A stretch of 15,380 bases of DNA. It comes from Clostridia bacterium. Lineage in GTDB: Bacteria; UBA6262; WVXT01; JAUXBS01. Shown one piece after another: positions 5,538-15,297 of this stretch; within the stretch, counting starts at the first letter, position 1, and each line of letters opens with the position of its first letter. The translations under genes were made by a program, and so were the position numbers. The stretch spans positions 1 to 15,380 of the forward strand of contig JAUXDE010000031.1 in NCBI GenBank assembly GCA_030618495.1, read 5' to 3'. Under the pieces are notes generated by a model, which was not told the DNA's origin, ran no database searches, and saw only the letters and a list, made by a program, of their open reading frames with translations.

Positions 5538-6659
5538 CTACCTGGCCGCTGTTTTCTTATAAACTTCAAGCGTCTGACTGGCAGTCTTCTCCCATGAAAA
5601 CATTCCGGCCCTCTCCAGCCCCTTTTTTTTCATTGACTCCTGCAATGATTTATCACTTATTATTTTACTCATTGCCCTTGAAAGTTCATCCGCATTACCC
5701 GGGTTAACCAGCTCTGCGGCGTCCCCCGTTATCTCCGGTATGGAGGAAACGTCTGAAGCGATTACCGGAACTCCGCATGCCATAGCTTCAAGAGGCGGCA
5801 ATCCGAATCCTTCGTAAGTTGAAGGATAAACAAAAAGTTTGGAAGCGCCGTATACCAGGGGCAGTTCCTTATCGGCAATATAACCCGTGAATATTACTTC
5901 GTCTTCAAGCTTCAATAACTGTACCGTATTAAATATCTCGTTAAACATCCATCCCTTTTTTCCCGCTATGACCAGTTTATGTTCAACCCCGGTTAAATCC
6001 TTTAACTGCTTGAATGCCCTTATCAGCACCGGAACGTTTTTCCTCGGCTCAAGCATTCCGACATAAAGTATGTACTTCTCCGGCAGGGAGTATTTTTCGC
6101 GGATATTTTCAAGAAGGGTTTTATCATCTACGGGTTTAAATAATTCATTTGCTCCCTCATATATCACGGTAACTTTTTCTTCAGGCACCCTGAATAACCT
6201 GATTAAATCTTTTTTCGTGCATCCTGAAACCGCAATGAGCCCATCCGCTTTTTTGGCAAACGAAGGAACGAACAATGAATACACGATTCTATGCTTTATC
6301 CTGAATTTCTGCGGAAACAGCCATGAAACCATGTCATGAAATGTAATCACCAGCGGGCAGGGCATCCTCGCGGGCGCCACGTAGCAGGGAGCGTGCAGAA
6401 GTTCAATGCCATCGCGCTTAAGCAAACCGGGCAGTACGAATTGAACCCACAGTATCCTGGGCAGGATTCTGTTCCTGGATATTACCGTTCTAAAATTCCT
6501 TCCGAAATTCGTAAATTCTTCCGGCAAGTCCTTATTGGCGTACAGGAAGTATGAATTATCCGTATCGATCTTCGCCAGGTTCTTCAGTAAATTATACAGG
6601 TACTGGTCAACGCCCACCCTGTCTGCTGTAACAAAACTGACATCTATCCCTATGCGCAT
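5538..6659 (-). CDS. GT4-family (GT-B) glycosyltransferase
   Basis: This 373-residue retaining glycosyltransferase has two Rossmann-like halves. The N-terminal half starts MRIGIDVSFV with the glycine loop RVGVDQY (14-20) and includes HDMVSW (108-113). The C-terminal half has YILYVGMLEPRKNVPVLI (196-213), with the phosphate-contacting R206/K207, and the GT4 signature EGFGLPPLE with the two glutamates of E-x7-E at 283 and 291. It is cytoplasmic and uses a nucleotide-sugar donor; many relatives are mannosyl- or rhamnosyltransferases, but the sugar cannot be read from sequence. GGAGG lies just before the ATG at 6659, a strong ribosome binding site. It is the last gene of the run rarA to GT4, 10 bp after the FN3 protein, so a role in making a lipid-linked sugar or extending a glycan for the membrane transferases upstream is plausible. 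Confidence 0.93.
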   Translation of the reverse strand: MRIGIDVSFVTADRVGVDQYLYNLLKNLAKIDTDNSYFLYANKDLPEEFTNFGRNFRTVISRNRILPRILWVQFVLPGLLKRDGIELLHAPCYVAPARMPCPLVITFHDMVSWLFPQKFRIKHRIVYSLFVPSFAKKADGLIAVSGCTKKDLIRLFRVPEEKVTVIYEGANELFKPVDDKTLLENIREKYSLPEKYILYVGMLEPRKNVPVLIRAFKQLKDLTGVEHKLVIAGKKGWMFNEIFNTVQLLKLEDEVIFTGYIADKELPLVYGASKLFVYPSTYEGFGLPPLEAMACGVPVIASDVSSIPEITGDAAELVNPGNADELSRAMSKIISDKSLQESMKKKGLERAGMFSWEKTASQTLEVYKKTAAR

Positions 6660-6669
6660 TTTCCTCCAA

Positions 6670-7752
6670 CTATTTAACCAGTTTTTCCACCTTCTCGATT
6701 AACTCCTTCAGGCTGTTGGCATAATCCTCTTCATTGTCTTCAATAGATTCTGCAAGTTTGTAATATTCAAGCGCTTCTTCATACCTTCCATTAAACATAT
6801 GGTGCGCGGCAATGGCAGCATAAACGTACGCTGCGCTCAGCTTTGACGTTCCGTTTTCAACGGCTTCAAGTTCTCTTTTAAGCAGGTCTGTGAAATATCC
6901 GGGAAAATCACCGTAGCAAAAGGCATAATCCACCAGGTAGAACAGGAACAGGTACGTACCCTGCTTCCGGTACTTCTGCACCCATTTGTCGGGAACGTAC
7001 ATTACCGTTTCATTCTTTTTTTTCGGTTCGGTGAAGGCGGTTCCCAAAAATGAAATTCCCGCCATGAAATCGTTGTACTTTTCCAGGTTAAAACCCTTAC
7101 TGCTGTAAGGGTCATCCTTTATCATGAAATAATAATGCTGGTTTTCGAGATGCCTGTCAAAATAATACTGCGACTTTTTATTTTTAAGCTTCTTGTAGCA
7201 GAATGCGACCTTGAACAATGAATCAACATTCTTTACCCTGGCCCCGGACTGCAGGGCTTTAAGATAAAGTTTTACCGCGGGTTTATATTTTTTCTTCCGG
7301 GCGTAAAACAGCTTGTTTGCCCTCTTCATGTAAATATCCGCCTTCTTAATATCCTTCCCCGAATTGGTAACATTGGATACGCCCGACATGTTTCCCGTCT
7401 CGTCAAAAGCCCCTAAAGCATAATAGCAGGTAACGTCCGGTTTTAGTTTTCTTACTTTGATTTTTTCGATTATCCCGCTTTTCTTTCTTCCCCTTACCTT
7501 CTTCAGGATTTTTGCCTCGTCCCAGCGTTTCTCCAGGTCAAATGATTTATCCTCCGTGTACCTGATTTCATAATAACGCACCCTGCCCACGGTACCGTCG
7601 TCCCCGGCCGCCGTCCACTCAATTTCTATCTTTCTTCCGTTAAAAGCAGTCAGATCATCTATGTTTCCGGGAGGAATCGTGTCTTTTGACGCGGCAAGAA
7701 CCTGGAACGAAAAAACCAGGTTTACTAAAATAAAAATCAGCACATGTCTCAT
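6670..7752 (-). CDS. Secreted protein with an FN3 domain and helical repeats
   Basis: This 360-residue protein begins with a clear Sec signal peptide (MRH, a hydrophobic core at 4-18, and probable cleavage near VLAA at 18-21). Residues about 25-129 look like a fibronectin type III domain: DTIPPGNIDDLTA, then IEIEWTAAGDDG, YYEIRYTED, and the closing YYALGAFDETGNMSGVSN. TPR-like helical pairs follow at about 137-210 and 300-355 (for example YEEALEYYKLAE). The stretch at about 205-290, rich in Tyr, Phe and Lys, was not recognised. No membrane anchor or lipobox is seen, so it is probably periplasmic or released. Its ATG overlaps the stop of the DUF2723 gene as ATGA, implying translational coupling. 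FN3 is an Ig-like beta-sandwich, the same broad fold type glycosylated by eukaryotic relatives of the two upstream proteins, so it may be their acceptor or accessory. That is inference. Confidence 0.8.
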   Translation of the reverse strand: MRHVLIFILVNLVFSFQVLAASKDTIPPGNIDDLTAFNGRKIEIEWTAAGDDGTVGRVRYYEIRYTEDKSFDLEKRWDEAKILKKVRGRKKSGIIEKIKVRKLKPDVTCYYALGAFDETGNMSGVSNVTNSGKDIKKADIYMKRANKLFYARKKKYKPAVKLYLKALQSGARVKNVDSLFKVAFCYKKLKNKKSQYYFDRHLENQHYYFMIKDDPYSSKGFNLEKYNDFMAGISFLGTAFTEPKKKNETVMYVPDKWVQKYRKQGTYLFLFYLVDYAFCYGDFPGYFTDLLKRELEAVENGTSKLSAAYVYAAIAAHHMFNGRYEEALEYYKLAESIEDNEEDYANSLKELIEKVEKLVK

Positions 7753-9833
7753 TTGTTCTCCTTTGATAAATAGTTTCTGATTGTATTGTAATTCACAACG
7801 GCATCGTTACAGTTCGGGTCTATCTTCATTGCCTTCTCAAACATCTCCAGGGATTCATTCACCATGCCTTTTCTGAAATAAGATATACCCAGGTTATTGT
7901 AACCTGACGCAAAGTCAGGATTGTGCTTCACCGCTTTTAAAAACTGACTTATTGCGCTATCCCATTCCCCCTTGCCGTTGTATACGAGCCCAATCCCGTT
8001 GTAGCCTGAAGCATAACCGGGATTTACATTGACGCTCTTATCGTAAACTTCAAGCGCCTTATCATACATCTTGTTACTATAGTATATATTCCCCAAATCA
8101 AGAAGCACGCCTTCAATATCATAGCCTATACCGCAGGCTTTCTCATACCACAGCATCGCATTGTTTTGATCATTCTTCTCTTTATAGTACTCCGCCATAA
8201 ATAAAGGATACCTTAAGGAAACCAGCCTCGTCCTGTAGTCTTTGTGCGGGGTATCGTCGTACACCCCCGGCATATCGTACCCATCCCACACATCCCGCCT
8301 TTCTTCCCACGTTTCACCGTCCCTGATAACTTTGAATAAAATCCCTACCGGTTTTACCGGGACTCCTCCCACATCAATATCCTTGGTAAAATAAACCGGT
8401 CTTTTAGTGGAAGTGATCAGTTCTGTCCTTACCTTCTGCCTTGCTGCTTCCGAACCGGCATGTTGACCGTATATGTTTTTAAAAACATTGCCGAATGCCT
8501 CGTAAACCGAAACATCGGGTCTTTTCTTTTCAACTATCTTCAAATACGCCATGGGAAATACAAAGTCATCCCCCAGGATGAACAGGATGGAATCCTTCTC
8601 AAGTGTTTTCAACGTATTGGCTGCGTGGTCGTATGCAATCCGGTTCCGGCTTCTGTCATTGGCATGATAGTTTCCCGCCAGCAAAATCAACGGCAGGAGT
8701 ACCAGCGCGTAAACCAGTTTGTTCCTTATTATTTCCATAAGAACTATTATACCAATCCCCGTCCATATGGAGAATACCACTCCCGGCATTACATAAAACC
8801 TTCTTGACATATCAAGGTACATTGGATTTTTCGGCATGTTCGCATACACGAGAAAAGCCAAACCGCTGACAACGAATATCATCATAAGAGAATAAAATAT
8901 TCTTTTATTCTCCCTGAATAACCTGAACGCCCCCGCAATACCCAGCGCAATACCTATAATCTTGAACTGTTCGAAAAGCAAGGTTGCGAATGTAATTACC
9001 TGCCTTAACACCGACCCCGGGGACGGCAGCGCGCCAAGGTCAGAATGAAGCCTGAAGGTACCGTACTGCGACCTGGTTATCACCTCTATGAATCTCTTCA
9101 GGTTATCGGGATTTCCCCAGTTCATAACCGGTGAACGCGATGCCCTGACCGGCAGGTAGATATACAGCAATACGCCCATTAACACAAACAGCATGAAGTA
9201 AAATAATGTTTGTAGTATATTTTCTTTTACCTGGACTCCCTGGCGCTTTACCGTTATCCATATATAATAAACTATTCCGGGCAATGCCATGATTATTGTG
9301 ATATGATTCGTAAGACTCAAGCCCAGGATAAATCCTAACAGGTACAGGTAGGAATTCTCCCTGCCGTTCCATTTCAACGCCACCAGGACCAGCAATGCCA
9401 GGAAGAAAGCATTCAGGCTGAATACTTCCGCTGTCACTGCCCCCGACCAGAACTCCGATGAAAATGCCAGCATCAGCGACCCCGTTACCGCAGCGAGTTT
9501 CTGAAATACCGCCTGAGGAAGCAACGTAGAACATATTTTAATTTTCGCCGTAACCAACAGAATAATGAAGTAAACAAGAACAACAGTCAGGGAGGAAAAG
9601 AACGCAGACATGAGGTTTATCCTGTAGGCTATATTGCCAAACGGCAGCATGGTGAACAGTTTTCCCAACAGCGTATAGAGCGGATATCCGGGAGGATGAG
9701 CAATCCCCATGCAGTACGATGCTGTAACGAGTTCCCCGCTGTCACCGATATAAACCGTGGGGCACAATGTCTTAACATACACTACAAGCGTCAAAATAAA
9801 AACTAAAACAAATATTTTTTTCATGATTTTCAT
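7749..9833 (-). CDS. DUF2723 (TMEM260-like) GT-C membrane protein with C-terminal TPRs
   Basis: This 694-residue polytopic membrane protein belongs to DUF2723, the family that includes human TMEM260, a protein O-mannosyltransferase acting on IPT domains of plexins and related receptors. The family hallmark is at the first extracytoplasmic loop: YIGDSGELVTASY (28-40, with D31 and E34 as likely catalytic acids) and IAHPPGYPLY (44-53). About ten more hydrophobic segments run to residue 390, followed by a soluble region and about four TPRs (about 535-672), two of them clear 34-residue units at 605-638 and 639-672. The TPRs probably face the periplasm and bind acceptor protein. Two ATGs (9833 and 9824) are possible starts and neither has a strong ribosome binding site. 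It sits 24 bp after the TMTC-like gene. Donor is probably a polyprenyl-phosphate sugar; sugar and acceptor are unknown. Confidence 0.9.
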   Translation of the reverse strand: MKIMKKIFVLVFILTLVVYVKTLCPTVYIGDSGELVTASYCMGIAHPPGYPLYTLLGKLFTMLPFGNIAYRINLMSAFFSSLTVVLVYFIILLVTAKIKICSTLLPQAVFQKLAAVTGSLMLAFSSEFWSGAVTAEVFSLNAFFLALLVLVALKWNGRENSYLYLLGFILGLSLTNHITIIMALPGIVYYIWITVKRQGVQVKENILQTLFYFMLFVLMGVLLYIYLPVRASRSPVMNWGNPDNLKRFIEVITRSQYGTFRLHSDLGALPSPGSVLRQVITFATLLFEQFKIIGIALGIAGAFRLFRENKRIFYSLMMIFVVSGLAFLVYANMPKNPMYLDMSRRFYVMPGVVFSIWTGIGIIVLMEIIRNKLVYALVLLPLILLAGNYHANDRSRNRIAYDHAANTLKTLEKDSILFILGDDFVFPMAYLKIVEKKRPDVSVYEAFGNVFKNIYGQHAGSEAARQKVRTELITSTKRPVYFTKDIDVGGVPVKPVGILFKVIRDGETWEERRDVWDGYDMPGVYDDTPHKDYRTRLVSLRYPLFMAEYYKEKNDQNNAMLWYEKACGIGYDIEGVLLDLGNIYYSNKMYDKALEVYDKSVNVNPGYASGYNGIGLVYNGKGEWDSAISQFLKAVKHNPDFASGYNNLGISYFRKGMVNESLEMFEKAMKIDPNCNDAVVNYNTIRNYLSKENK

Positions 9834-9857
9834 GGGCTCAAACCTTAATTTAGAAGT

Positions 9858-11780
9858 CTACCCCCCTATTTGTTTGATTATTTCCTTTATTGTTTCCCTG
9901 TCGGGAGCATTAGGGCTGATTTCCAGGTATTTATGAAAATAATCCGATGCTTTTCCATATTGCATTAACTTGCTATAGTAGACCATTCCGATATTCATGT
10001 ATATATCCGCCCTGTCGGGATTTACCTTGCTAACCTCTATAAACTCCCTTACCGAATCACTGTATTTTCCCATCCCATAATACAAATTAGCAAAATTATA
10101 ATGGCCGTTTTCATACTCCGGGTTTATTTCAACAGCTCTTTTGTAACATTCTGCCGCTTCAGCGTACATTTTTTTATTCTGGTAAATAAGTCCGAGATTA
10201 TTATAAGCCTCTTCAAGCTCCGGATCAACTCCTATCGCTTTCTTGTACCATTCTTCCGCCTTATCATAATCATTCTTCTCATAGTACAGGTAGCCAAGGC
10301 CATTGTACGCGGGAGCATGTTCCGGATTTATCTCAATTGCCTTATTATACATACCTATGGCTTTTTTCCATAATCCCTTTTTCTTGTATGCAAACCCCAT
10401 GTTGTTCCATGCCTCAACATAATCGGGTTGTATTTCTATGACTTTTTCATATTCCTTTATGGCCTTATCGTACATTCCCCTTATGTAATAAAGCGCCCCG
10501 ATATTGTTATGAGCAACATAGTTATCGGGAAACCTTTGAACAGTCCTTTCCCACAGTATTAAATCGTTTTTCCAATCGGTATTGCGTTTCATGGTAACCA
10601 GGGAATATGAAACTATTACCGCTATTAACATGAAAGTCATCAGGTTACTCTTTCTTTTTTTTACTGCCAGAAGCGGCATCGCCATCAGGATGGAAAACCC
10701 TACAGAGGGCAGGTACAACAACCTGTCTGCGATTAATATCCCAATTGGAATTATGTTTGATACCGGCAACAATGCTATTAAGAACCAGAATACACAGAAA
10801 GCAATAAGCTTGCGCCGTTTTAACATATAAAAAGCGATAAATACAACCAGTATCACCACCAGGATTCCCGGGATAACTCCCGGCTCCAACAGGTTTTCGA
10901 AAATCGGAAAATCCCTCTTTTCAGGACTTAATCCAACAGGATAAAATAACAGTTTTACATAATTCATAAAAACCACGGACATTGTGTACACCCTGGCAGA
11001 TATGCTTTTCAAATGAAAAACCTTACTGCCCCCCACGGGGCCGATACCCGACAGGACCGACAACCTTATAACTAAATACACCGCTGTCACGGCAAGGTAA
11101 CCCAGGTAACGGGATATGTTGCTTTTTATTTTTTTAAAAGATATCGATGCCCCGTTTTTTTTGTTCAACAGCAAATCCCACAAAACGATTATTGCGGGTA
11201 GGGTTGCCGCAGACTCCTTTGACATCAGCGCGAGCATGAAAGAAAACAGGGAAATGAAATAATACCGGAGGGATTTTTTACTTCTTATATAAAGGAACAG
11301 GGCAGCCAGGAAGAAAAAGGTTGAAACCAGTTCCGCTCGGCCCACAATGCCCGTTACCGCTTCAACATGGACGGGATGGGCTATGAATACCAGCGCTGCC
11401 AGCAGGGCAACACGGGTATTATTCTGTACCCGGAACCTTCTTAAAATGAACGCGCAGAGAAAGAATATCAGGATTCCGTTTAACGAATGGAATAAATAAT
11501 TCGTTAAATGGTACCCAAATGAATTAAGTTTCCATACGAAGTAGTCCAGGGCATAAGAAGTAATGATTACCGGCCTGTATATTCCTTTCTTTTCCCCGCC
11601 CTGGCTTATCGGCCAGTAACTTGAAACAAAGAAACGCGGGATATTCTTCAGGCTCCTGATTAGAACATTCTGGTCAACAATTGAATGGTCATCAAATACA
11701 AAATCATTATTGAAACCATTGGAAAATACTACAAGCGATACAAAAAATATCAAGAAAACATATTTTCCTGTTTTATTCAT
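9858..11780 (-). CDS. TMTC-like GT-C membrane protein (DUF1736 type) with six C-terminal TPRs
   Basis: This 640-residue protein has the arrangement of eukaryotic TMTC1-4, which O-mannosylate cadherins: a multi-spanning GT-C core followed by TPRs. Visible family marks are FDDHSIV (29-35, with the acidic pair D30/D31), YRPVIITSYALDY (68-80), GYHLTNYLFHSLN (89-101), HPVHVEAVTGIVGRAELVS (135-153) and a nearby SKESA. About ten hydrophobic segments run to residue 400. Residues 418-622 hold six consecutive TPRs of 34 or 35 residues, each near PxxxxAxxNxGxxYxxxxxYdkA. The reaction is expected to move a sugar from a polyprenyl-phosphate carrier to Ser/Thr outside the membrane. The ATG directly follows the rny stop (TAAATG), suggesting reinitiation or coupling. 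Bacterial TMTC-like proteins have no settled substrate, and an assembly role for the TPRs alone cannot be excluded. Confidence 0.9.
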   Translation of the reverse strand: MNKTGKYVFLIFFVSLVVFSNGFNNDFVFDDHSIVDQNVLIRSLKNIPRFFVSSYWPISQGGEKKGIYRPVIITSYALDYFVWKLNSFGYHLTNYLFHSLNGILIFFLCAFILRRFRVQNNTRVALLAALVFIAHPVHVEAVTGIVGRAELVSTFFFLAALFLYIRSKKSLRYYFISLFSFMLALMSKESAATLPAIIVLWDLLLNKKNGASISFKKIKSNISRYLGYLAVTAVYLVIRLSVLSGIGPVGGSKVFHLKSISARVYTMSVVFMNYVKLLFYPVGLSPEKRDFPIFENLLEPGVIPGILVVILVVFIAFYMLKRRKLIAFCVFWFLIALLPVSNIIPIGILIADRLLYLPSVGFSILMAMPLLAVKKRKSNLMTFMLIAVIVSYSLVTMKRNTDWKNDLILWERTVQRFPDNYVAHNNIGALYYIRGMYDKAIKEYEKVIEIQPDYVEAWNNMGFAYKKKGLWKKAIGMYNKAIEINPEHAPAYNGLGYLYYEKNDYDKAEEWYKKAIGVDPELEEAYNNLGLIYQNKKMYAEAAECYKRAVEINPEYENGHYNFANLYYGMGKYSDSVREFIEVSKVNPDRADIYMNIGMVYYSKLMQYGKASDYFHKYLEISPNAPDRETIKEIIKQIGG

Positions 11781-13340
11781 TTATTTTGCCACTTCTACCG
11801 ACCTTATTTCCCTTACTACCGTAACCTTTATCTGCCCGGGATACTTCAATTCCTGCTCAACCCTCTTTGCGACTTCCCGCGCCATCTGCGCCGACATATC
11901 ATCATCAACGTTAGCCGGGTCGACTATTATGCGAATTTCTCTTCCCGCCTGGATAGCGTAGCTCTTTTCCACTCCTGGAAATGATTCCGCTATCTTCTCA
12001 AGATTCTCCAGTCTCTTAAGATAAAACTCCAATGACTCGCGCCTGGCCCCCGGCCTTGAAGCTGAAATAGCATCCCCTGCCTGTATCAAAACCGCTTCAA
12101 TGGTTTCAGCAGGACAATCCTCGTGGTGCGCCGCAATTGCATTAACCACTTTATCGGATTCCTCGTATTTCTTTGTCAGGTCCGCGCCTATCTTGGCATG
12201 AGTTCCCTCCACATCGTGATCTATTGCTTTACCTATATCATGCAGCAGGCCCGCGCGCACGGCAAGATTTACATCAAGCTTCAATTCCGCTGCCATTACC
12301 TTTACGGCTTTGGCAACTTCTATTGAATGCTGGAGCACATTCTGTCCGTAACTTGTCCTGTATCTCAGTCTTCCTATTAACTTGAACAATTCGGAATTCA
12401 GCCCCTGGACATTGAGGTCATACGCAGCCTGTTCCCCAACCTCTTTCAGGTGCTCATCCATTTCCTCGCCCGCCTTTTTCACTGTCTCCTCAATCCGCGC
12501 AGGTTGAATTCTACCGTCCGCAATTAAACGCTCCAGGGATACCCTTGCTATTTCCCTGCGCACACCGTCAAAAGCCGACAGGGTTATGGCTCCCGGTGTA
12601 TCGTCAATAATCAAATCAACCCCCGAGGCGGTTTCAAATGCCTTTATATTCCTTCCCTCGCGTCCTATGATTCTTCCTTTCATTTCATCATCCGGAAGAG
12701 AAACCGTTGAAACGGTGATATCAGCCGTATACTCAGAAGCGCTCTTCTGTATTGCCTGGCTCAGTATTCTTTTTGCCTTTCTATCGGCCGTCTCAATCGC
12801 CTGCTGTTCAATCTTCCTTATCAATGTCATGCCTTCCCTCTTTACTTCTTCTTCCATCCTGCTGAGAAGTATTTTCTTTGCTTCCTCGGGAGTCATCTTC
12901 GCAAGCCTTTCAAGAACTTTCTTCTGTTCTTCCTTTACCTGCGAGAGCCTGCCTGATTCTTCCGTAACCCACTTTTCCTTTGATGAAATATATTTTACTT
13001 TCTTATCCAGTTCCAATTCCTTTTTTTCCAGCATATCGACCTTGCGGTCCAGGTTTGTTTCTTTCTGCATTACCCTTTTCTCGAATTCCTGGAGTTCAGT
13101 TCTGCGGCTTTTGGTTTCCCTGTCAAAATTCATCCTCGACTTGTGCATTTCCTCCTTTGCTTCAAGTATACCCTCCTTTTTCTTGGATTCATATTCCTTT
13201 TGCGCATCGTCAATAATCCTTTTAACATTGGATTCAGCTGAATTTAACTGCCTTCCGGCAGCAATCACCCTTATAATCCAGCCAATGATTATTCCAAGAA
13301 CCACAGCGCCCAATCCGACGAAAACAATTAAGTTATCCAT
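11781..13340 (-). CDS. rny: Ribonuclease Y
   Basis: RNase Y is a membrane-anchored endoribonuclease that starts mRNA decay in many bacteria lacking RNase E. This copy is full length at 519 residues with the complete domain order: an N-terminal membrane helix (about 4-28), a long charged coiled coil (about 33-200), a KH domain with GRIIGREGRNIKAFE (222-236), and an HD domain with H338 (QHSIEVA), the HD pair H367/D368 (LLHDIGKA), H405/H406 and D423 (AGDAISA). The ATG at 13340 is preceded by AAAGGGG at suitable spacing. It lies 21 bp after the cyclo-ligase gene and its stop abuts the TMTC start. A link between 5-formyltetrahydrofolate cyclo-ligase and rny is seen in other bacteria; the glycosyltransferases that follow are unusual company. 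Confidence 0.97.
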   Translation of the reverse strand: MDNLIVFVGLGAVVLGIIIGWIIRVIAAGRQLNSAESNVKRIIDDAQKEYESKKKEGILEAKEEMHKSRMNFDRETKSRRTELQEFEKRVMQKETNLDRKVDMLEKKELELDKKVKYISSKEKWVTEESGRLSQVKEEQKKVLERLAKMTPEEAKKILLSRMEEEVKREGMTLIRKIEQQAIETADRKAKRILSQAIQKSASEYTADITVSTVSLPDDEMKGRIIGREGRNIKAFETASGVDLIIDDTPGAITLSAFDGVRREIARVSLERLIADGRIQPARIEETVKKAGEEMDEHLKEVGEQAAYDLNVQGLNSELFKLIGRLRYRTSYGQNVLQHSIEVAKAVKVMAAELKLDVNLAVRAGLLHDIGKAIDHDVEGTHAKIGADLTKKYEESDKVVNAIAAHHEDCPAETIEAVLIQAGDAISASRPGARRESLEFYLKRLENLEKIAESFPGVEKSYAIQAGREIRIIVDPANVDDDMSAQMAREVAKRVEQELKYPGQIKVTVVREIRSVEVAK

Positions 13341-15207: not shown

Positions 15208-15297
15208 AAAAAAATCCCTGCTATACCGTGAAAACAGACAGTAAGCCAACCAGCACCGGCGCTCTTCAGCCTGACATCACAGACATAGCAGGGATTT
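15208..15297 (-). promoter_or_regulatory. Structured rarA leader: long hairpin ending in a T run at the start codon
   Basis: A perfect 13-bp inverted repeat (AAATCCCTGCTAT at 15285-15297 and its complement at 15212-15224, minus sense) encloses 60 nt. Inside, further helices can be drawn for the minus-strand RNA: CUGUGA with UCACGG, AGGCUGA with UUGGCUU, and AGCG-CCGG-UGCU at the tip. Several pairs are G-U and would be lost on the plus strand, which supports minus-sense RNA. The 3' arm contains the rarA ribosome binding site and merges into seven U residues that reach the ATG. It could be a terminator-like attenuator, a translation switch, or a small RNA. I could not match it to a known riboswitch, 6S RNA or SRP RNA. 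Confidence 0.6.

Follow-up and report, generated by a model that had tools for sequence, protein, structure and literature searches.

Background

Two families of animal protein O-mannosyltransferases share the arrangement of a GT-C membrane core with TPRs. The human TMTC1-4 proteins (CAZy GT105) begin with a GT-C core, carry a TPR array behind it and are described by a published table of seven motifs (PMC7801869), and human TMTC models place the DUF1736 region and the DW motif (M5) near metal and phosphate. Human TMEM260 (CAZy GT117; PDB 9rql) is built of a GT-C core with a C-terminal TPR arm, and its acceptors in animals are IPT domains. In human glycoproteomics O-mannose was located chiefly on cadherin and IPT domains, a few FN3 domains being modified at low occupancy; the human TMTCs and TMEM260 act on Ig-like folds, with a few FN3 cases (PMC11292533). 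In 2021 attention was drawn to full-length bacterial TMTC homologues, e.g. AMJ42_05695, Deltaproteobacteria DG_8 (PMC7801869); these too are GT-C proteins with TPRs from uncultured bacteria, of predicted function only. In the literature searched DUF1736 was found and DUF2723 was not.

General O-glycosylation loci of bacteria are described from Tannerella, Neisseria and Burkholderia. Extracytoplasmic O-glycosylation of proteins by the genes presented here would be a process of that kind, but the known loci transfer preassembled oligosaccharides, whereas nothing here implies a transferase of that type and a single-sugar donor is expected. To our knowledge, TMTC- and TMEM260-dependent domain-specific O-mannosylation has been described in eukaryotes only.

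Here we analyse the window, a whole stretch of 15,380 nucleotides of bacterial DNA, in which a TMTC-like and a TMEM260-like gene lie side by side; no TMEM260-like neighbour was reported for the bacterial TMTC homologues of 2021.

Materials and methods

The genome carrying the window (1.69 Mb, 98% complete, about 1600 genes) was compared with that of a sister species of the same genus (G001), with the own phylum sampled by six genomes, with 68 genomes of Hydrogenedentota and with a wider set of 116 genomes, most of which represent one bacterial family each. TMEM260-like proteins were searched with PF11028 (curated cut-off 24.2 bits) and TMTC-like proteins with a profile (A3) made from the GT-C core of the window protein; the single TMTC-like protein used as a query against genome contigs returned TPR matches only. 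TMTC motifs were judged against the seven-motif table for human TMTCs (PMC7801869), with 13 TMTC-like paralogues of the same genome aligned.

Results and discussion

Organization of the locus

Every gene from position 15249 down to 1 is carried by the minus strand. The features considered below are as follows.

11781-13340, minus: rny (RNase Y), housekeeping neighbour of the TMTC-like gene (TIGR03319, 715 bits)
9858-11780, minus: TMTC-like GT-C glycosyltransferase (predicted) with C-terminal TPR array, 640 aa (ORF, Pfam TPR, TMTC motifs in the 13-paralogue alignment)
10560-11780, minus: GT-C membrane core of the TMTC-like protein, residues 1-407, source of profile A3
11688-11693, minus: codons D30-D31, DD motif (M1), in the first extracytoplasmic loop of the TMTC-like protein
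7749-9833, minus: TMEM260-like (PF11028) GT-C glycosyltransferase (predicted) with C-terminal TPR array, 694 aa (PF11028, TPRs, phmmer match to human TMEM260 9rql)
8499-9809, minus: portion of the TMEM260-like core aligned to human TMEM260 by phmmer
9741-9743, minus: codon D31 in GDSGEL, candidate catalytic or metal-binding Asp of the TMEM260-like protein
6670-7752, minus: predicted secreted protein with signal peptide, FN3-like domain (residues ~20-135) and C-terminal TPR (hydrophobic segment, weak FN3 matches, orthologue in the sister species)
5538-6659, minus: cytoplasmic GT4 glycosyltransferase (PF00534, E 1.6e-43)

Read from 15249 to 9858, the order is rarA, 5-formyltetrahydrofolate cyclo-ligase, rny and the TMTC-like gene. 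The TMEM260-like, FN3-like/TPR and GT4 genes follow, then radC, a DUF3467 gene and a VanZ-like gene, and finally a HTH-cupin regulator, plsY, a small protein and a UvrD helicase. There are 0 bp between the rny stop and the TMTC-like start and 24 bp between the TMTC-like and TMEM260-like genes, while the TMEM260-like and FN3-like genes overlap by 4 bp; no minus-strand terminator-like site was found in the short gaps between these four genes. Such spacing makes a shared transcript for the TMTC-like and TMEM260-like genes plausible.

The sequence-only reading of this DNA had described two adjacent genes, 24 bp apart, each encoding a GT-C core with a C-terminal TPR array. Both ORFs were found as described, each protein having a multi-TM N-terminus followed by Pfam TPR matches (residues ~410-635 of the TMTC-like protein) or TPR_1/TPR_2 matches (residues 576-686 of the TMEM260-like protein). 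The observation on the genes is thus right, and so are the family labels, with one correction: the first protein is TMTC-like, not a DUF1736 TMTC.

TMEM260-like protein

By its sequence this protein belongs to the TMEM260/GT117 family, and we regard the assignment as settled. The DUF2723 profile that the first reading had called for, PF11028.14, matches it with 157 bits (E 4.7e-46), and a phmmer search of PDB sequences retrieved human TMEM260 (9rql) with E 8.7e-47. Residues 9-445 pair with residues 30-464 of the solved human protein, 437 residues in which the whole GT-C core is aligned throughout, among them a segment of 33 residues set against 33 of the human enzyme; GDSGEL and AHPPGYPL are common to both. 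All five TMEM260-like proteins of the genome keep D31 of GDSGE. Unlike the core, the C-terminal arm of the bacterial protein does not align with the human one. The acceptors in animals are IPT domains; for the bacterial protein acceptor and sugar are only predicted.

TMTC-like protein

The reading of the other protein as a TMTC stood in its architecture and in most of its motifs, and did not stand for DUF1736 and DW. DUF1736 (PF08409) gave no match to the window protein even at E 10, and none above the cut-off among the genomes of its phylum; sub-threshold matches occur in three of the 13 paralogues (best E 0.007). With M1, the DD of D30-D31 is kept in 13/13 paralogues and corresponds to D52/D53 of human TMTC1 (PMC7801869). 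M2 (SHKSYRP) retains YRP, with R69 in 13/13, and lacks SHK, and in M3 (RxD) R148 is present in 13/13 with E replacing D (RxE). M4, KE(T/Q)xxT, reads KESAAT in the window, S standing for T/Q, with K188 in 13/13, E189 in 11/13 and T193 present. The DW of M5 is missing, the window having EK and the aligned paralogues mostly D or E followed by H or Y. One P of M6 (PxxP) could be clearly placed, and M7, (D/E)RxxY, is DRLLY in the window, with E in 12/13 and Y in 13/13 paralogues at the E352 and Y356 positions. An additional pattern, HP..EAV, is conserved in the TMTC-like cores, with H135-P136 invariant across the 13 paralogues. Compared through the motif table, the protein is thus like human TMTC1-4 in DD, YRP, the R of RxD, KExxxT and (D/E)RxxY, and unlike them in DUF1736, DW, the SHK of M2 and the RxE form of M3. 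A crude hydropathy plot gave about 9 clear segments versus the 11 TM helices, with extracytoplasmic TPRs, of TMTC/GT105, profile A3 had no match in PDB, and a single-sequence structure model of the core (pLDDT 47) was too poor for use on the active site. On its sequence the protein is best described as a GT-C/TPR protein outside the strict DUF1736 family.

Absence of DUF1736 and DW, together with the existence of catalytically inactive GT-C relatives such as PIG-U (PMC7801869), might suggest a degenerate scaffold which is no transferase and merely presents TPRs in the periplasm. We regard this as very improbable: the 13 paralogues share only 21-43% identity with the window core, yet DD, K188, R148 and H135-P136 are invariant in them, which indicates strong constraint at the active-site loops. 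The absence of acidic catalytic residues from structure models had been named earlier as grounds for refutation; at the level of sequence, candidates for such residues are conserved, the DD in 13/13 TMTC-like cores and D31 in 5/5 TMEM260-like proteins.

Comparison of TMTC-like and TMEM260-like profiles gave a weak match only, so the two are distant GT-C relatives, and their origin as recent paralogues was ruled out on the same ground. The claim that these are bacterial relatives of two eukaryotic families can be upheld, on the TMTC-like side without DUF1736.

Secreted FN3-like/TPR protein and the nature of the acceptor

The product of the gene overlapping the TMEM260-like gene has a single N-terminal hydrophobic segment. 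Evidence for its FN3 domain is weak: NCBIfam TIGR00868 matches residues 23-129 with E 1.6e-6, a chitinase FN3 gives E 0.14, and PF00041 (FN3) does not match. It has the pattern DxxPP...W.A..DDG...YEIRY...L.P...A.D..GN.S, which we take to be typical of bacterial FN3 domains. A single-sequence model of this protein (pLDDT 42) was too poor for use. Its orthologue in the sister species is 70% identical and again comes next, downstream, to the TMEM260-like orthologue, so that no other partner of that gene is as well conserved. A link to secreted Ig-like proteins, anticipated by the sequence-only reading, is thus seen at the locus itself, weak as the FN3 call is, and we propose this protein, as a lead only, as the best candidate acceptor or partner of the TMEM260-like enzyme. 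A general enrichment of FN3 domains in the genus was also considered and dropped, PF00041 matches (8 and 6 in the two genomes) being no more numerous than the 2-7 in genomes of the same order without TMEM260-like genes.

The enzymes could also be active GT-C transferases that use a lipid-phosphate sugar and act on envelope glycans or lipids, as do ArnT and the polysaccharide-decorating GT-Cs, with TPRs docking to the envelope assembly machinery. The TMTC-like core has weak PMT_2/GtrII matches, a cytoplasmic GT4 gene lies in the same strand run, and in the sister species (locus L086) the order is TMEM260-like, FN3/TPR, flippase (Wzx-like) and GT4. Furthermore, a GT-C fold does not by itself tell what an enzyme's acceptor is (PMC7801869), and TMEM260-like genes of Hydrogenedentota commonly stand beside plsY and a GTPase gene, not beside secreted Ig-like genes. 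Against these points, the full core of the TMEM260-like protein resembles an enzyme with protein acceptors, the combination of GT-C and TPRs is common to both animal protein O-mannosyltransferases, and it is a secreted-protein gene that overlaps the TMEM260-like gene. On balance, glycan or lipid acceptors seem rather unlikely to us.

Pairing of the two genes within the genus

Clustering of TMTC-like genes with TPR-bearing TMEM260-like genes recurs in this lineage. Three of the five TMEM260-like genes of the genome adjoin a TMTC-like gene, namely those of the window, contig 90 (C90) and contig 59 (C59). The order on contig 90 is TMTC, response regulator, TMEM260, TMTC; on contig 59 the TMEM260-like gene is preceded by an ORF for the TPR end of a TMTC-like protein, with 63% identity to its counterpart in an operon of the sister species. 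That operon, on contig 28 (C28), is composed of TMTC-TMEM260-TMTC-TMTC with 4-bp overlaps, and contig 75 (C75) of the same species carries TMTC, a secreted DUF2914 protein and TMEM260.

In the sister species the orthologues of the window pair do not adjoin one another and lie on two contigs. There, the rny-TMTC pairing is the same as in the window (L092), and an AAA/DUF4143 ATPase gene lies upstream of the TMEM260-like orthologue, with contig ends nearby; insertion would explain the separation, and rearrangement is equally possible.

In the tree, the TMEM260-like proteins form two clades, and the linked ones all belong to that of the window protein. The TMTC-like genes linked to them fall into several TMTC lineages (a relationship between the pairs of the window and of contig 90 is possible), so the pairing does not descend from one copied cassette, and duplication of a single TMTC/TMEM260 cassette was ruled out.

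It is quite possible, at a little below even chances, that the adjacency has no meaning and the enzymes act separately, neighbours only through crowding of TMTC-like copies (about 20 among the roughly 1600 genes) and tandem growth of GT-C islands. Such a view bears on the adjacency alone and would leave both enzymes free to be protein glycosyltransferases. Tandem TMTC pairs and other GT-C genes do occur in the same islands, the orthologous pair is not adjacent in the sister species, and the arrangement is almost absent elsewhere. On the other side, random placement predicts about 0.03 linkages per TMEM260-like locus, and three of five has P of about 1e-4 to 3e-4 when tandem growth of gene islands is ignored; linkage is confined to one TMEM260-like clade and never met in the other; and there are the 4-bp overlaps of the contig 28 operon and the several lineages of linked TMTCs.

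Distribution outside the genus

Both families are widespread in bacteria, and their pairing is almost absent outside the genus. In Hydrogenedentota, TMEM260-like matches were found in 52 of 68 genomes (48 above the cut-off) and TMTC-like ones in 67, with a TMTC-like gene adjacent at one of the 39 TMEM260-like loci inspected (L102). In the 116-genome sample, TMEM260-like proteins occur in 56 genomes and TMTC-like proteins (profile A3) in 47; both families are present in 28 of the 110 genomes outside the own phylum, which is above chance (Fisher P 0.006, uncorrected for phylogeny). None of the 62 TMEM260-like loci in other bacterial families had a TMTC-like gene within the 3-18 kb examined, and viral contigs contained nothing for either family. 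The survey of co-occurrence proposed with the first reading, which was to tell whether the pair is a one-off neighbourhood, therefore gave a divided answer: pairing recurs inside the genus, and outside it a TMTC-like neighbour is found at 1/101 loci. A general link of the two genes is not borne out, considering also that most TMTC-like copies of the genome lie in unrelated housekeeping operons.

Genome complement and probable sugar donor

The unusual thing here is the TMTC-like expansion: about 20 genes found with profile A3 (some cut at contig ends) in 1.69 Mb, beside 5 PF11028 genes. The sister species has a similar TMTC-like count, and 8 of its genes exceed the PF11028 cut-off. Since PF11028 finds nothing in four further genomes of the order, and TMTC-like matches number 0-2 in them, the expansion can be assigned to the genus or family. 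Many copies sit singly in housekeeping operons (rny, ksgA, trxB, uvrD; names read from N-termini). PMT_2-type GT-C proteins with TPRs were also observed in the same islands as the clustered genes.

Four GT2 enzymes of the size of polyprenyl-phosphate-sugar synthases were scanned in the genome. Two of them were compared with the PDB, and for both the best match was dolichol-phosphate-mannose synthase 5mlz (E 3.8e-31 and 2.5e-22); a lipid-phosphate-sugar donor is therefore likely available. Their genes lie elsewhere in the genome, while the transferases and the secreted FN3-like gene are together at the locus.

Conclusions

The reading that we favour, with somewhat more than even confidence, is that both genes encode active protein O-glycosyltransferases dependent on a lipid-phosphate sugar, with acceptors selected by TPRs, and are part of a lineage-specific expansion. 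Both proteins would be located in the inner membrane and would transfer one sugar, a hexose and possibly mannose, at the periplasmic face: the donor would be a polyprenyl-phosphate carrier, and the target Ser/Thr of exported proteins that the periplasmic TPR arm selects. Several parallel transferases with different acceptors would be the simplest reading of the repeated clustering, and the FN3-like/TPR protein would be the first acceptor to consider.

Taken singly, the parts of such a system are already known and occur widely. What the literature searched does not describe is that they cluster repeatedly and that the TMTC-like set is so large, and both features are specific to this lineage. 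By our estimate the TMTC-like genes make up over 1% of all genes in a small genome of a sparsely sampled phylum, and this would need explaining. For both families, widespread as they are in bacteria, the literature searched yielded no tested bacterial activity, and a small cluster holding both enzymes and a candidate Ig-like acceptor lends itself to a simple recombinant test of transfer and of acceptor selection by TPRs. A bolder version, which we hold to be improbable although somewhat less so than the scaffold discussed above, is a large modular system of protein O-glycosylation in this genus, where every TPR-bearing transferase serves a single exported Ig-like or repeat protein of its own, the window holding one cognate cassette of TMTC-like and TMEM260-like enzymes with a translationally overlapping FN3-TPR acceptor. 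If true, it would be a bacterial counterpart, and perhaps the ancestor, of domain-specific O-mannosylation in animals.

TMTC-like genes and their neighbours

The genome from which the window derives carries about 20 TMTC-like GT-C/TPR genes in 1.69 Mb, which by estimate is more than 1% of its genes, and many of them are single additions to housekeeping operons. A second species of the same genus (G001) has a similar TMTC-like set; other genomes of the order gave 0–2 matches. Orthologues of the two species are about 70–80% identical, whereas a 3.7 kb stretch is 100% identical between L088 (G001:C85) and L031 (G000:C100), the latter from the window's own genome, and a 2.9 kb stretch is 99% identical between L091 (G001:C188) and L040 (G000:C81); contigs were therefore probably cross-binned between the two metagenome bins.

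Features of the inspected loci
L087:12979-15192, PMT_2-type GT-C protein, C-terminal TPR array
L087:15189-17183, PMT_2-type GT-C protein, C-terminal TPR array
L028:7879-8247, short response-regulator receiver gene overlapping TMEM260-like gene
L087:17999-18340, short response-regulator receiver gene overlapping TMEM260-like gene
L182:4681-11788, tandem array of three TMEM260-like genes
L041:4171-4977, secreted DUF2914 protein, downstream of TMTC-like gene
L085:635-1441, secreted DUF2914 protein, downstream of TMTC-like gene

The PMT_2-type proteins are a third GT-C/TPR class within the TMTC-like/TMEM260-like islands; the L087 genes lie beside the response regulator and TMEM260-like gene. The receiver overlap occurs in both species.

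TMEM260-like genes of Hydrogenedentota have a different conserved context, with plsY repeatedly alongside (L104, L105, L108, L109, L111, L115, L120, L125, L130) and, in many of these nine loci, a GTPase gene too. In L105, plsY and the TMEM260-like gene are fused in a single reading frame.

The DUF2914 gene lies 3' of the TMTC-like gene in both species, and in G001 it stands between the TMTC-like and TMEM260-like genes. Its secreted product is another candidate acceptor.
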